Shown here piece by piece: positions 1 through 2,635 of a DNA stretch of 64,000 bases. The DNA is taken from contig JAFXFN010000011.1 in the NCBI GenBank assembly GCA_017520505.1, forward strand, positions 1 through 64,000, written 5' to 3'. Numbering within the stretch: the stretch's first letter is position 1; every line of letters starts with the position of its first letter. The DNA comes from Clostridia bacterium. Its GTDB lineage: Bacteria > Bacillota > Clostridia > Oscillospirales > CAG-272. Both the position numbers and the translations under genes were made by a program. A model generated the notes under the pieces. That model was given only the letters and a program-made list of their open reading frames with translations. It was not told where the DNA came from and did not search any database.

Positions 1-38
1 AAACCGTCGCGAGAGTTCAAATCTCTCCTTCTCCGCCA
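1..38 (+). tRNA. tRNA-Ser, 3' part only (cut by window start)
   Basis: The sequence shows a T arm (GAGAG, loop TTCAAAT, CTCTC at 11-27), a 7-nt acceptor strand CTTCTCC at 28-34, discriminator G35 and encoded CCA at 36-38. The missing 5' acceptor would read GGAGAAG, and the CGTCGC just before the T arm looks like the end of a long variable arm. Both are usual for clostridial tRNA-Ser. The anticodon lies outside the window, so the isoacceptor is unknown. Confidence 0.75.
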
Positions 39-40
39 AC

Positions 41-80
41 AAAAAAGGAACTTTTGTCTATCAAAAGTTCCTTTTTTGTT
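41..80 (+). terminator. Rho-independent terminator after tRNA-Ser
   Basis: A perfect 16-bp stem (41-56 with 62-77) has a 5-nt loop TCTAT and a T-rich 3' arm. It shares the CTTTTGTCTA core with the two 58-bp repeats at 1075 and 1571, so it may be a relative of those repeats as well as the tRNA terminator. Confidence 0.8.
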
Positions 81-83
81 TAT

Positions 84-265
84 CCAAGCCGCAGGCTTGG
101 CATATCATCGCCGCGCGAAGCGTGGTGCATATCATCAGCCCCTACGGGGCTGTATCTCATCACGCGCCAGCGTGCATTTTGCCTGCGGCTTGATGATATG
201 CAATGCTTCGCATTGATGATATACCGCAACAAGTTGCGAATGATATACACGCCTTCGGCATGATT
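84..265. repeat. Hairpin mosaic A with GATGATAT-type spacers
   Basis: A run of short perfect or near-perfect hairpins: 84-90/94-100, 111-116/120-125, 138-142/146-150, 161-165/170-174, 201-206/210-215, 225-230/233-238 and 251-253/257-259. Most loops are 2-4 nt. Spacers in the left half read CATATCATC and those in the right half read GATGATATGC or TGATATAC, so the two halves are inverted copies and could also pair long-range. The array ends about 25 bp before the promoter of the four-helix-bundle gene. Function unknown. Confidence 0.8.
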
Positions 266-289
266 GGGATGCGAGTTGGTGGAAAGCTC

Positions 290-318
290 TTGAATTGCCT
301 TGCAAGATATGATATAAT
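290..318 (+). promoter_or_regulatory. Promoter of the first four-helix-bundle gene
   Basis: TTGAAT at 290-295, a 17-bp spacer, TATAAT at 313-318. It lies directly right of hairpin mosaic A. Confidence 0.75.
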
Positions 319-340
319 ACCCTCGAAAGGGAGTGATTGT

Positions 341-688
341 ATGGCTAAAAACTATTTATTGATCTATTCGGAGCAACTTGCGACCGATATAGAATTACTT
401 TGTCAAAATATAAAAGCTCCTTCCAACACTCTTTTTCAAATTCGCAAGAGTTCAAGTAGTGTGTACGCAAATATTCGGGAAGCAAATTACGGACAGAGCA
501 AGGCGGATATGCTTTCAAAATTTGAAATAGCTCTCAAAGAATGTAGTGAAACCGAAGGCTGGCTACAATTGTTGTTCAACACAAATGGTATTGACGAAGA
601 AACATATAAAAACTACAGAAATCTTTGTGGGCGTATCAGACGAATGTTGATTGCGAGTTGTAAAACGCTGAAGGAAAATGAGAAATGA
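341..688 (+). CDS. Four-helix-bundle protein (S23/Avd-like, TIGR02436 type), copy 1
   Basis: A 115-residue all-helical protein. It has the family hallmarks Q-I-x-K-S-x-S-S-V-x-A-N-I-x-E-A in the first half, S-K-F-E-I-A-L-K-E in the middle and an R-R-M-L-I-A-S-C-K tail. Relatives are encoded in 23S rRNA intervening sequences or act as Avd accessory proteins in diversity-generating retroelements; no reverse transcriptase or template repeat is visible here. The ATG at 341 has AAGGGAG upstream; the longer open frame from 203 runs through the hairpin mosaic and is rejected. Its stop overlaps the next gene by ATGA (685-688), so the two are probably translationally coupled. It is clearly related to 1859-2212 but diverged. 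Molecular role unknown. Confidence 0.88.
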   Translation: MAKNYLLIYSEQLATDIELLCQNIKAPSNTLFQIRKSSSSVYANIREANYGQSKADMLSKFEIALKECSETEGWLQLLFNTNGIDEETYKNYRNLCGRIRRMLIASCKTLKENEK

Positions 689-1005
689 ACAATACAAAAT
701 GGACAGAGATATTCAAAGAATTTTATTATGGCATTGAATGTGCAGAGGATGAAAATTTAAGTAACATACTAATTCCATGGACAACCAAAACGACAAATGG
801 CTATATATACTCTGATACGACATGGACGCATTTTGGCGTTGGTATGGGAAATTCAAAGGAGATAGAATGGTTAAAAATTGATTTAACTCCTATAAACACA
901 GAAATTGTGCTTGATATTTTGAAAAAAATTCATGTTCCCGGTGAGGTATTCGACGATTGTGTTTATGTATACGGTTATCGAACAGATGTTGACTACATAA
1001 AATAA
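685..1005 (+). CDS. Small hypothetical cargo protein coupled to the four-helix-bundle gene
   Basis: A 106-residue soluble, acidic protein rich in Trp and Tyr, with no signal peptide or membrane segment. I cannot assign it to a family with confidence. It starts inside the stop codon of the four-helix-bundle gene (ATGA). The equivalent position in the third cassette holds an unrelated membrane protein, so this slot looks variable. Downstream, TTGGACACCTTTT occurs twice (about 1018 and 1050) before the 58-bp repeat. Confidence 0.65.
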   Translation: MNNTKWTEIFKEFYYGIECAEDENLSNILIPWTTKTTNGYIYSDTTWTHFGVGMGNSKEIEWLKIDLTPINTEIVLDILKKIHVPGEVFDDCVYVYGYRTDVDYIK

Positions 1006-1074
1006 TATACAATTCATTTGGACACCTTTTGTTCGCAATTACCCCTGCTTGGACACCTTTTATCACGTTTAAGG

Positions 1075-1132
1075 CAACAAAAAACGCACTTTTGTCTACC
1101 GACAAAGGTGCGTTTTTTGAATGATGTTTGCC
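1075..1132 (+). repeat. 58-bp repeat, copy 1 (contains a terminator-like hairpin)
   Basis: By eye this is identical to 1571-1628. It contains a strong stem (AACGCACTTTTGTC with GACAAAGGTGCGTT, one G-T pair) and a T run, so it can act as a terminator. Its right end (AATGATGTTTGCC) is already the first spacer of the hairpin mosaic, tying terminator and mosaic into one repeated module. Confidence 0.85.
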
Positions 1133-1177
1133 TGTCACGCAAATGATGTTGGCTACGCCAATGATGACGGCTACGCC
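1119..1177. repeat. Hairpin mosaic B (short, one-sided)
   Basis: Three AATGATG spacers (about 1120, 1141 and 1160) separate short palindromes such as GGCTACGCC. Only the ATGATG orientation is present, so this looks like half of mosaics A and C. The 19-bp stretch ending GACGGCTACGCCT is repeated in mosaic C. Its last palindrome abuts the -35 box of the next gene. Confidence 0.7.
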
Positions 1178-1206
1178 TTGATTTGTTTACAAAAGTGTGG
1201 TATAAT
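1178..1206 (+). promoter_or_regulatory. Promoter of the DUF2695-like gene
   Basis: TTGATT at 1178-1183, a 17-bp spacer, TATAAT at 1201-1206. The -35 box directly follows the last palindrome of mosaic B. Confidence 0.75.
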
Positions 1207-1243
1207 ATGACTGATAAACCAGAATATTACGGAGGTTAGTAAT

Positions 1244-1474
1244 ATGGCAGACTACATTCTCTCTGAAGAAAATGTGCAAAAATTATTTGCATATTTGGAA
1301 GATCAATTGGATGCTTGTGGTTGTGATAACACTCTGCGCTGCACAGAACAATGGCTTAAAGACAATATTTCATCGGAACTGCATGAAAGTGTAATTGCCG
1401 AAATTACTGATATGGGTGGCTATTGCGACTGCGAAGTATTGCTCAATTGCTATGAAGATTGTGATATAGAATAA
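1244..1474 (+). CDS. DUF2695-like small protein
   Basis: A 76-residue acidic protein with motifs CDNTLRCTEQWL and GGYCDCEVLLNCYED, which match my recollection of the DUF2695 family (function unknown). Several Cys residues (C-G-C and C-D-C) suggest metal binding, which is inference. GGAGG at 1231-1235 lies 8 nt before the ATG. It is the single gene of the second cassette and has no four-helix-bundle partner. About 40 bp of AT-rich sequence separates it from the 52-bp repeat. Confidence 0.75.
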   Translation: MADYILSEENVQKLFAYLEDQLDACGCDNTLRCTEQWLKDNISSELHESVIAEITDMGGYCDCEVLLNCYEDCDIE

Positions 1475-1516
1475 GTAATTTTCAAATTTCCGTAATAAAT
1501 ACACAAGCGAAAATCG

Positions 1517-1568
1517 CGCACCTTTTTTGCGTTTTTACCTACACCTACGCACCGTTTGTGCGTTTCTT
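1517..1568 (+). repeat. 52-bp direct repeat, copy 1
   Basis: It matches 2467-2518 with two mismatches by eye. It contains small inverted stretches (GCACCGTTTGTGC). The two copies bracket the third cassette (58-bp repeat, mosaic C, four-helix-bundle gene and membrane gene), about 950 bp apart. Confidence 0.85.
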
Positions 1569-1570
1569 CG

Positions 1571-1628
1571 CAACAAAAAACGCACTTTTGTCTACCGACA
1601 AAGGTGCGTTTTTTGAATGATGTTTGCC
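1571..1628 (+). repeat. 58-bp repeat, copy 2 (terminator-like)
   Basis: Appears identical to 1075-1132. It sits directly between the 52-bp repeat and mosaic C. Confidence 0.85.
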
Positions 1629-1808
1629 AAAGTTCGCTTTGCGAACTTTGCGGCAAAATGATGACGGCTACGCCTAATGATGTTTGCTGCGCGAATGATG
1701 CGTGGCTTCGCCACATTTTATGGCAAACATCGCATCATTGCGGAACGAAGTGGAGCAACATCATATTTGCGAAGCAAATGCATCATATCGCCGTAGGTGA
1801 TGCATCAT
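1614..1808. repeat. Hairpin mosaic C with ATGATG/CATCAT spacers
   Basis: Clear hairpins are 1629-1637/1641-1649 (loop TTT), 1702-1706/1710-1714 (loop TTC) and 1766-1770/1774-1778 (loop GAA), plus weaker ones such as CGCC-GTA-GGTG. Spacers on the left are AATGATG; on the right they are CATCAT, the inverse order to mosaic A. The left GATGTTTGCC can also pair with GGCAAACATC near 1722-1731. The array runs straight into the TTGACA of the next promoter. Confidence 0.8.
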
Positions 1809-1837
1809 TTGACAAGCATATGAATTTATGATATAAT
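1809..1837 (+). promoter_or_regulatory. Consensus promoter of the second four-helix-bundle gene
   Basis: TTGACA at 1809-1814, a 17-bp spacer, TATAAT at 1832-1837, directly joined to mosaic C. Confidence 0.85.
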
Positions 1838-1858: not shown

Positions 1859-2212
1859 ATGAAAGAAAATAAACTCGTCGAACTTTCAATGGATTTCTCC
1901 GTTGATATCATAAACCTTGTTAAATATCTGAAAGCAAACCACGAAACGATTATATCCAATCAAATCGGCAGAAGCGGCACCTCTATTGGAGCGAATATCC
2001 ACGAAGCACAATATGCGCAAGGAACAAAGGATTTCATTTCTAAATTTGAAATTGCCCTTAAAGAAGCAAGTGAAACAGGATATTGGCTTGAATTGCTTTA
2101 TCGCACAAAATATATTGACGAACAAACCTTTAAAGCTCTTTCTTCAAAATGTACCTCGTTGCGAGTTATGCTGATTGTATCTTGTAAAACTGCAAAGGAG
2201 AACTCCAAATGA
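1859..2212 (+). CDS. Four-helix-bundle protein (S23/Avd-like, TIGR02436 type), copy 2
   Basis: A 117-residue helical protein with the family signature R-S-G-T-S-I-G-A-N-I-H-E-A, S-K-F-E-I-A-L-K-E-A-S-E-T and a terminal L-R-V-M-L-I-V-S-C-K-T. AAGGAGG lies about 6 nt before the ATG. It overlaps the following membrane protein gene by ATGA (2209-2212), exactly as copy 1 overlaps its own neighbour. The conserved partner with changing cargo suggests the four-helix-bundle protein is the cassette's constant part. Function is unknown; the best comparisons are rRNA intervening-sequence proteins and retroelement Avd proteins. Confidence 0.9.
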   Translation: MKENKLVELSMDFSVDIINLVKYLKANHETIISNQIGRSGTSIGANIHEAQYAQGTKDFISKFEIALKEASETGYWLELLYRTKYIDEQTFKALSSKCTSLRVMLIVSCKTAKENSK

Positions 2213-2448
2213 AAAAGAAAAATAAAAACACAAAGACGGGGTTGTTGTCCTTATTTCTTCAAATTCTCGTAGTTCTTTTTATAGGCTTTTGTATTTGTAG
2301 CGTTTGGGGTACTGTTATCCGCTGTATATTCAACGGATTTGATGATTTTTTACTTAAAATCATTGACCTGCCCTATTTACTTTACTTGTTTTTTTCGCTG
2401 ATCATATCGTTAATTCTAATTTTCGTAATACGCCAAAAAGCAAAATAG
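2209..2448 (+). CDS. Small two-helix membrane protein (cassette cargo)
   Basis: A 79-residue protein with a Lys/Asn/Thr-rich N-terminus, a first hydrophobic segment at about residues 12-40, a short loop containing Phe-Asp-Asp, a second segment at about 48-73 and a basic tail. No family recognised. It is coupled by ATGA to the upstream four-helix-bundle gene. It could be a toxin-like or immunity-like peptide, but nothing in the sequence proves this. Confidence 0.6.
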   Translation: MKKKNKNTKTGLLSLFLQILVVLFIGFCICSVWGTVIRCIFNGFDDFLLKIIDLPYLLYLFFSLIISLILIFVIRQKAK

Positions 2449-2466
2449 TGCAAATTTTAATATTTA

Positions 2467-2518
2467 CGCACCTTTTTTGCGTTTTTACCTACGCTTACGC
2501 ACCGTTTGTGCGTTTCTT
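2467..2518 (+). repeat. 52-bp direct repeat, copy 2 (right edge of island)
   Basis: Partner of 1517-1568. Here it is not followed by the 58-bp repeat or a mosaic. It may be an empty or terminal cassette boundary. Confidence 0.85.
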
Positions 2519-2592
2519 TGAACCAAAACCGTGAAAGTTCGAATTCATACGCAAAACTGTCTAAAATATCTTTTTTTTGTAGCTATAGCCAT

Positions 2593-2635
2593 AAAAAGCA
2601 CACATTTGTTATCATGACAATGTGTGCTTTTTCTC
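2593..2635. terminator. Terminator hairpin
   Basis: AAAAAGCACACA (2593-2604) pairs with TGTGTGCTTTTT (2621-2632). T-rich on both strands, so possibly bidirectional. Confidence 0.7.

Follow-up and report, generated by a model that had tools for sequence, protein, structure and literature searches.

Intervening sequences (IVS) of 23S rRNA, as in Leptospira and Coxiella, are short elements with one small gene of the S23 family (PF05635) and inverted repeats around that gene. The S23/IVS family has long been called selfish, and we know of no mechanism and no insertion-site rule for it. Here, we analyzed 64,000 nucleotides of a Clostridia bacterium contig (JAFXFN010000011.1; the window, throughout), which opens with three tandem units, each containing hairpins, behind a tRNA-Ser gene. 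These hairpin mosaics are probably (at a probability of roughly 0.7) the left ends of small mobile gene cassettes located behind tRNA genes in gut Clostridia. The cassettes appear to be relatives of the rRNA IVS: the protein family is the same, and the S23 insertions in 23S rRNA sampled here carry the same kind of heptamers. Unlike the IVS, the window cassettes are located behind tRNA-Ser rather than inside a fragmented 23S rRNA gene (the window contains no rRNA match), both halves of their arrays lie upstream of the S23 open reading frame (ORF) instead of flanking it, hairpins separate the heptamers, and the cassettes possess cargo, a terminator of their own, a right-end repeat and tandem stacking.

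Other known systems resemble the cassettes in part. Integron cassettes share with them small promiscuous cargo, tandem accretion, structured site-like DNA, precise boundaries and helper-less members, but ORF reading finds neither an integrase nor attI in the cassettes (the genome was not searched for IntI), which occupy many genomic sites (tRNA ends), have their own promoter and S23 gene, and contain a hairpin array in place of one attC. Repetitive extragenic palindromes (REPs) and bacterial interspersed mosaic elements, with their Y1 transposase RAYT, also are intergenic hairpins with a conserved short tag in inverted orientation; the tags of the cassettes, however, are element-specific (AATGATG, ATATCATC and others), 7-9 nt long and not GTAG/CGTC-like, and the partner is S23 rather than a Y1 transposase, which several S23-rich genomes lack. 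Dictyostelium TRE and yeast Ty retroelements target many tRNA genes at a fixed offset, without harm to the host; the cassettes differ in being bacterial, in involving neither reverse transcriptase nor polymerase III, and in insertion flush with the CCA. Classical tRNA islands encode a tyrosine integrase and duplicate the tRNA 3' end, whereas the cassettes lack an integrase, adjoin many isotypes and have ends that share only CA, although at some loci (L115, L164) a stretch of ~37 bp that includes the tRNA terminator occurs as an exact copy to either side of the element and resembles a long target duplication. Avd of diversity-generating retroelements is reported to be a homologous four-helix bundle (PMC10053308), but the cassettes contain no reverse transcriptase, template or variable repeat, and reverse transcriptase is missing from many S23-rich genomes. 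In contrast to CRISPR arrays, the constant part spans only 7-9 nt and is inverted halfway, the variable part is a hairpin, and no cas gene is found among the cassette genes; the '23S rRNA IVP' entry in a figure legend on CRISPR-associated proteins in a CRISPR-mining paper (PMC10910872) may reflect these arrays.

The three cassettes of the window (39-1076, 1077-1572 and 1573-~2525) lie directly 3' of the tRNA-Ser CCA and follow a common plan: terminator, array, promoter-like hexamers with a 17-base spacer, one or more small genes, and a right end consisting of a pair of ~25-bp direct repeats (Table 1). The range 84-1808, for which the original prediction was made, comprises three separate arrays (A, 84-275; B, 1120-1180; C, 1616-1809) plus three genes; the context of these arrays is given by the adjoining tRNA end, the terminator and promoter, the S23 gene with its cargo, and the right-end repeat. 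A search with Rfam models detected only three tRNAs in the window. The leading tRNA-Ser, too truncated to be called by ARAGORN, has a 3' end identical to that of tRNA-Ser(gct) of relatives (e.g., L086 and L123).

The original prediction described mosaics in which constant spacers are inverted in the second half while neighboring hairpins have unrelated stems, and took this pattern to reflect selection on structure rather than simple duplication. The sequence bears out both parts of the description. In array A (84-~275), the left spacers are CATATCATC, CATATCATC and GTATCTCATC, and the right ones GATGATATGC, GATGATATAC and AATGATATAC; array C has AATGATG four times on the left and CATCATT, ACATCAT and GCATCATT on the right; in both arrays the stems between spacers are unlike one another and the loops are short, of the TTCG, TACG and GAA types. 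Among 163 S23-linked regions, 133 contain a 6-mer in both orientations, and in 110 of these 133 arrays the two orientations are perfectly separated into left and right, against ~10 expected by chance. Spacers vary between families yet remain inverted. Both arrays also fold better than shuffled controls: none of 200 dinucleotide shuffles was as good as array A folded as DNA (84-275; z -3.5) or as array C (1613-1812; z -5.1 as DNA and -4.4 as RNA, with 200 shuffles each). At least five hairpins (stem of at least 5) were found upstream of S23 in 66% of 159 regions, a frequency that falls to 7.8% in the 669 regions preceding other ORFs and to 0.6% in shuffles.

Selection on structure was addressed with 55 aligned homologous arrays, for which RNAalifold yields a consensus structure that is paired in 98.4% of cells and in which the hairpins are arranged along a stem, each left spacer pairing with a right spacer as in a stack of four-way junctions. 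Two-sided changes occur at 12 pairs, all within hairpin stems (shuffled mean 3.3; 0 of 500 shuffles as high; slid structures far lower). When hairpins were assembled from different alleles, with stems re-optimized for real and chimeric hairpins alike, stems became shorter for six of the seven (H1-H4, H6 and H7). Given that two-sided changes exceed those in shuffles and that chimeras lose stem length, the hairpin stems covary across homologous arrays, and the proposal of selected structure holds against that of simple duplication. The idea of pairing between spacers comes from the occurrence of many different spacers and from the one-sidedness of inverted copies noted above; inverted spacers would suit pairing and an oppositely oriented protein-binding site equally well. 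At one locus (L109), part of the array and the start of the S23 gene are present in tandem copies, suggestive of repeated partial duplication.

The link to tRNA genes was assessed in 80 loci obtained by a protein search of named genomes, all of them from metagenome-assembled genomes (MAGs), for the most part Clostridia and Oscillospiraceae of the ruminant gut. In 55 of the 72 assayable loci, S23 starts 214-319 bp beyond the end of a same-strand tRNA, and none of the 72 has a tRNA on the opposite strand within 320 bp upstream or any tRNA within 320 bp downstream. The element begins immediately after the CCA of many isotypes (54 printed joins of <300 bp); all samples together include 89 tRNA-linked loci with 16 isotypes. 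At the other end, a motif search found right ends such as GACACCTTTTGTTCGTTTTTACCTCGTTTAGACACCTTTTATCACGTTTAAGGCA; the two-copy repeat there closes in (G/C)CA and is followed by an apparent native tRNA terminator or by the terminator of the next cassette. In a tandem series, each further cassette is therefore attached to the CA of its predecessor in the same way that the first is attached to the CCA of the tRNA. The window genome (G000) encodes five PF05635 proteins: the two genes of the window and a copy on contig C25 are located behind tRNAs with arrays, a gene on C17 lies behind a tRNA with an inverted pair of heptamer-like repeats, and one on C13 follows the rlmD stop with a TGATAT array; C25 additionally contains S23-less cassettes with a GTGAAAT array. 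In two genomes, S23 elements directly follow the stop of an apparent upp gene (uracil phosphoribosyltransferase; L318 and L327), which makes upp, after rlmD, the second protein gene to be targeted recurrently. Two human fecal scaffolds labeled as phage (L305, MT835815; L306, MT835590) also carry S23 elements with hairpin arrays; the label is unverified and the scaffolds may be bacterial. One of these elements sits behind a tRNA-like 3' end.

The S23 gene is under strong purifying selection, with dN/dS ~0.05 among relatives; a pentameric structure has been reported for the Xanthomonas protein (PMC4990558). The cargo gene begins at the S23 stop and belongs to diverse families, including NUDIX, DUF218, nucleotidyltransferase, SUKH, pyrophosphatase-like, DUF4279, GNAT and putative lipoproteins. 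S23 is missing next to nine AATGATG arrays. In the window genome, an array of the ATATCATC type stands alone on contig C34 (L012), with a recA-like gene on one side, a proB-like gene on the other and no S23, and resembles a non-autonomous remnant; a decayed cassette behind a tRNA on C18 (L013) retains the array start only, next to a HIT-like gene. No known recombinase is encoded in the cassettes. Y1_Tnp and RVT_1 domains are both absent from G014, G050 and G038 (six, seven and four S23 copies, respectively) and from G027, G028, G046 and G058 (three copies each), tyrosine and serine recombinases not having been tested in these genomes. Because several S23-rich genomes have neither, both seem dispensable, and a Y1 transposase or reverse transcriptase acting in trans was rejected as a required mover.

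Comparison of alleles is consistent with mobility. One 1.3-kb element with a near-identical body is located behind tRNA-Val in one MAG (L125) and behind tRNA-Arg in another (L126), the two copies differing in the terminator and in hairpins H2, H3 and H5. At tRNA-Leu, G008 has an element where its congener G059 has a terminator-like hairpin only; in genus g27, the tRNA-Thr site contains array and S23 in G027, the array alone at L262, L265 and L271, and neither in nine others. Behind rlmD in genus g28, three genomes carry different elements and others are empty; the filled allele L287 and the empty alleles L279, L283 and L291 are homologous on both flanks. Filled rlmD alleles have an element that opens with the inverted complement of the host gene's 3' end, and the best ungapped hairpin spans 5-13 bp (at least 8 bp in seven of the nine), compared with 5 bp in each of the five empty alleles. 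Three further searches yielded little: the downstream flanks of three MAG loci, used to look for empty tRNA sites among 345 family genomes, gave only weak hits, the tRNA-Ser site of G000 has no counterpart in its relatives and so no empty-site confirmation, and at the tRNA-Trp site of genus g22 the match is essentially confined to the tRNA end. On the whole, it is very probable that array, S23 and tRNA end together define a mobile cassette.

Repeats with a period of 7 nt accompany S23 far beyond this lineage. For plasmid-borne S23 genes of Bacteroidota, Spirochaetota, Cyanobacteriota and Clostridia, the best upstream repeat period was 7 nt in all 12 cases, a result reached by 0-1 per 100 shuffles. 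In a Bacillota-wide sample, 7 was the best period in 16-17 of the 24 scorable regions, most of them beyond shuffles, with period 11 in two regions and no clear repeat in the remainder. Strong period 7 was also found in 7 of 878 control upstream regions, some of which may themselves belong to S23-type elements. S23 is flanked by inverted copies in 25 of 34 loci from other lineages versus 2 of 66 tRNA-type loci. According to Rfam models, four of the sampled S23 genes are inside 23S rRNA and two inside RNase P RNA, where the heptamer arms pair into a long stem. The 23S rRNA insertions with flanking heptamer arrays are L324, L329, L332 and L336, the S23 frame of L332 containing an in-frame stop. 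At L331 and L333, S23 lies within RNase P RNA genes (RNase P RNA on the minus strand, 1229-2003) between inverted heptamer arrays (GGAAGTT.. / ..AACTTCC), which would loop the insert out of the ribozyme. Heptamers have also been described upstream of the S23 ORF in the Coxiella IVS (PMC4990558).

Table 1. Features of the tandem cassettes at the start of the window
Feature	Position	Strand	Basis or remark
tRNA-Ser, 3' part, encoded CCA at 36-38	1..38	+	contig begins inside the tRNA; cassette insertion site
Cassette 1, terminator hairpin flush with CCA	39..83	+	sequence; position kept at 54 homologous loci
Cassette 1, inverted hairpin array A, ATATCATC spacers	84..275	.	array class also at tRNA sites L113, L114, L116
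Promoter-like TTGAAT-17-TATAAT, between array A and S23 gene 1	290..318	+	sequence
S23/IVP four-helix-bundle gene 1	341..688	+	PF05635, E 3e-19
Cassette 1, cargo gene, DUF6678	685..1005	+	ATGA overlaps S23 stop
Cassette 1, right end, direct repeat GGACACCTTTT..TTACC / GGACACCTTTT..AAGGCA	1020..1076	+	sequence; motif common to other elements
Cassette 2, terminator	1077..1119	+	identical sequence at many tRNAs elsewhere
Cassette 2, array B, lacking the right half, AATGATG spacers	1120..1180	.	sequence
Cassette 2, gene for DUF2695 protein	1244..1474	+	cassette 2 lacks S23
Cassette 2, right end, GCACCTTTTTTGCGTTTTTACC..GCACCGTTTGTGCG..CGCA	1517..1572	+	sequence and motif search
Cassette 3, terminator	1573..1615	+	sequence
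Cassette 3, inverted hairpin array C, AATGATG / CATCATT	1616..1809	.	folding, alignment, covariation
Promoter-like TTGACA-17-TATAAT, between array C and S23 gene 2	1809..1837	+	sequence
S23/IVP four-helix-bundle gene 2	1859..2212	+	PF05635, E 7e-28; solved relative 2RLD, E 2e-29
Cassette 3, small cargo ORF, 79 aa, no Pfam match	2209..2448	+	sequence/profile search
Cassette 3, right end	2466..2525	+	sequence and motif search
Right end of a fourth-cassette remnant	2526..2591	+	type as that preceding the second array in L104; sequence comparison
Probable native tRNA-Ser terminator, apparently displaced by cassettes	2592..2633	+	sequence only

We propose the following scenario. A cassette of 0.6-1.3 kb, with the order terminator, inverted hairpin array, promoter, S23, translationally coupled cargo and right-end double repeat, would insert at tRNA genes of nearly any isotype, precisely at the junction of the encoded CCA and the tRNA's own terminator, related forms inserting behind protein genes such as rlmD; further copies would line up in tandem and in one orientation, each joined to the CA of its predecessor. 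S23, a pentamer in its solved relative, would treat the heptamer/hairpin array as the end of its own element, binding it as DNA or in a single-stranded form and bringing it to structured targets, with a host enzyme doing the cutting and joining; that S23 is the protein recognizing the array while a host enzyme performs the chemistry is quite possible, at slightly less than even odds. The terminator and hairpins would let the host transcript end normally, so that under this proposal insertion would be harmless. An S23/IVS-type mobile element turned into a tRNA-anchored cassette is the most likely origin. More tentatively, the cassettes could form an integrase-free system in which S23 itself recognizes the inverted heptamer/hairpin 'fishbone' ends and inserts at structured RNA genes, in which case any tRNA 3' end, 23S rRNA, RNase P RNA and gene-end hairpins would be the structured targets.

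Several points weigh against the interpretation of the mosaics as ends of mobile cassettes. Neither transposition nor S23 binding was observed in what is a computational analysis, S23 to our knowledge has no catalytic motif, and PF05635 proteins are not, as far as we know, recombinases. Only rlmD provides a clean two-sided empty site, homology at tRNA sites being limited to the upstream side, and the right ends were set by eye from the motif search. The tRNA statistics are dominated by the 80 nearest relatives, which constitute one subfamily; in the order-wide sample a tRNA is close to only 35 of 89 S23 genes, many of the rest lying behind protein genes, and the genomes are drafts, mostly MAGs. 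With respect to structure, hairpin H5 does not covary, keeping its stem length in the chimera test, and the spacer-spacer helices of the 55-array family, whose pairs hardly vary, have no two-sided changes; of the covariation that the original prediction suggested seeking in homologous arrays, the part concerning hairpin stems was found and that concerning spacer pairing was not.

Among the other explanations, it is conceivable, if on balance doubtful, that S23 and the array are passengers moved in trans by a recombinase, Y1 transposase or reverse transcriptase encoded elsewhere, as integron cassettes are by the integrase and as REPs may be by RAYT. The lack of a catalytic gene in the cassettes, the integron-like cargo, the precise CA boundaries and the existence of S23-less cassettes all fit such a mover, whereas the strong purifying selection on S23 and its association with such repeats in every sampled phylum do not, nor do the genomes that have many S23 copies and lack both RVT_1 and Y1_Tnp, with the same restriction regarding tyrosine and serine recombinases. 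Alternatively, the arrays could be regulatory or insulating DNA (protein-binding or cruciform) that stops read-through from the tRNA and sets S23 expression, with no part in mobility. Their position between terminator and promoter is what this scenario predicts, and it accommodates covarying stems and inverted spacers; it is nevertheless unlikely in view of the identical architecture at unrelated tRNAs and behind protein genes, and of the arrays without a downstream S23 at L262, L265, L271 and L012. Moreover, in other phyla the inverted repeats are located on both sides of S23 and therefore fit element ends better than a promoter feature.

A role of the arrays as RNA, with inverted heptamers pairing in read-through or IVS transcripts and looping the element out for RNase III, appears similarly improbable, despite the long heptamer-arm stem in RNase P RNA, the heptamers flanking S23 in 23S rRNA, and the excision by RNase III of the Coxiella IVS, which has heptamers upstream of its S23 ORF (PMC4990558). 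The arrays of the window follow a terminator and are not part of the S23 transcript, and at tRNA-type loci both array halves precede the gene, inverted copies flanking S23 in only 2 of 66. The branched RNA that the original prediction listed among its options is, likewise, less likely here because each array follows a terminator and precedes the promoter of its gene. Functionless tandem duplication or slippage with minisatellite-like decay is highly improbable. Pure heptamer versions do look slippage-prone, and the tandem copies at L109 would fit, but for hairpin arrays slippage is contradicted by the covariation of the stems; the conserved inversion, the strict link to one protein family and the pairing of the host rlmD 3' end with the first arm of the element (5-13 bp in filled versus 5 bp in empty alleles) also argue against it.

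For the S23/IVS family, these data provide a sequence signature, namely 7-nt repeats next to the gene that mostly recur in inverted form on its far side, as well as a target rule in one lineage (insertion at the CCA end, whatever the tRNA in nearly all cases), cargo and exactly defined boundaries; the family's mobility therefore becomes directly testable. We found no paper linking S23 to hairpin arrays, tRNA insertion or a general heptamer rule in a literature search that left subscription journals mostly uncovered, so that an earlier description is possible. If S23 is the mobility protein, genes would move without a known transposase, integrase or reverse transcriptase, and if S23 itself recognizes the ends, the same rule would explain S23-linked heptamers across phyla, possibly including the cyanobacterial heptanucleotide repeats, and offer an explanation for short tandem repeats of unclear origin. 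On a plasmid of Monoglobus pectinilyticus (L294), S23 lies between a restriction subunit S gene and hsdR, with heptamer-like repeats upstream. On a Planktothrix plasmid (L297), CCCCAAT repeats precede S23; we take these to resemble the short tandem heptanucleotide repeats of cyanobacteria.
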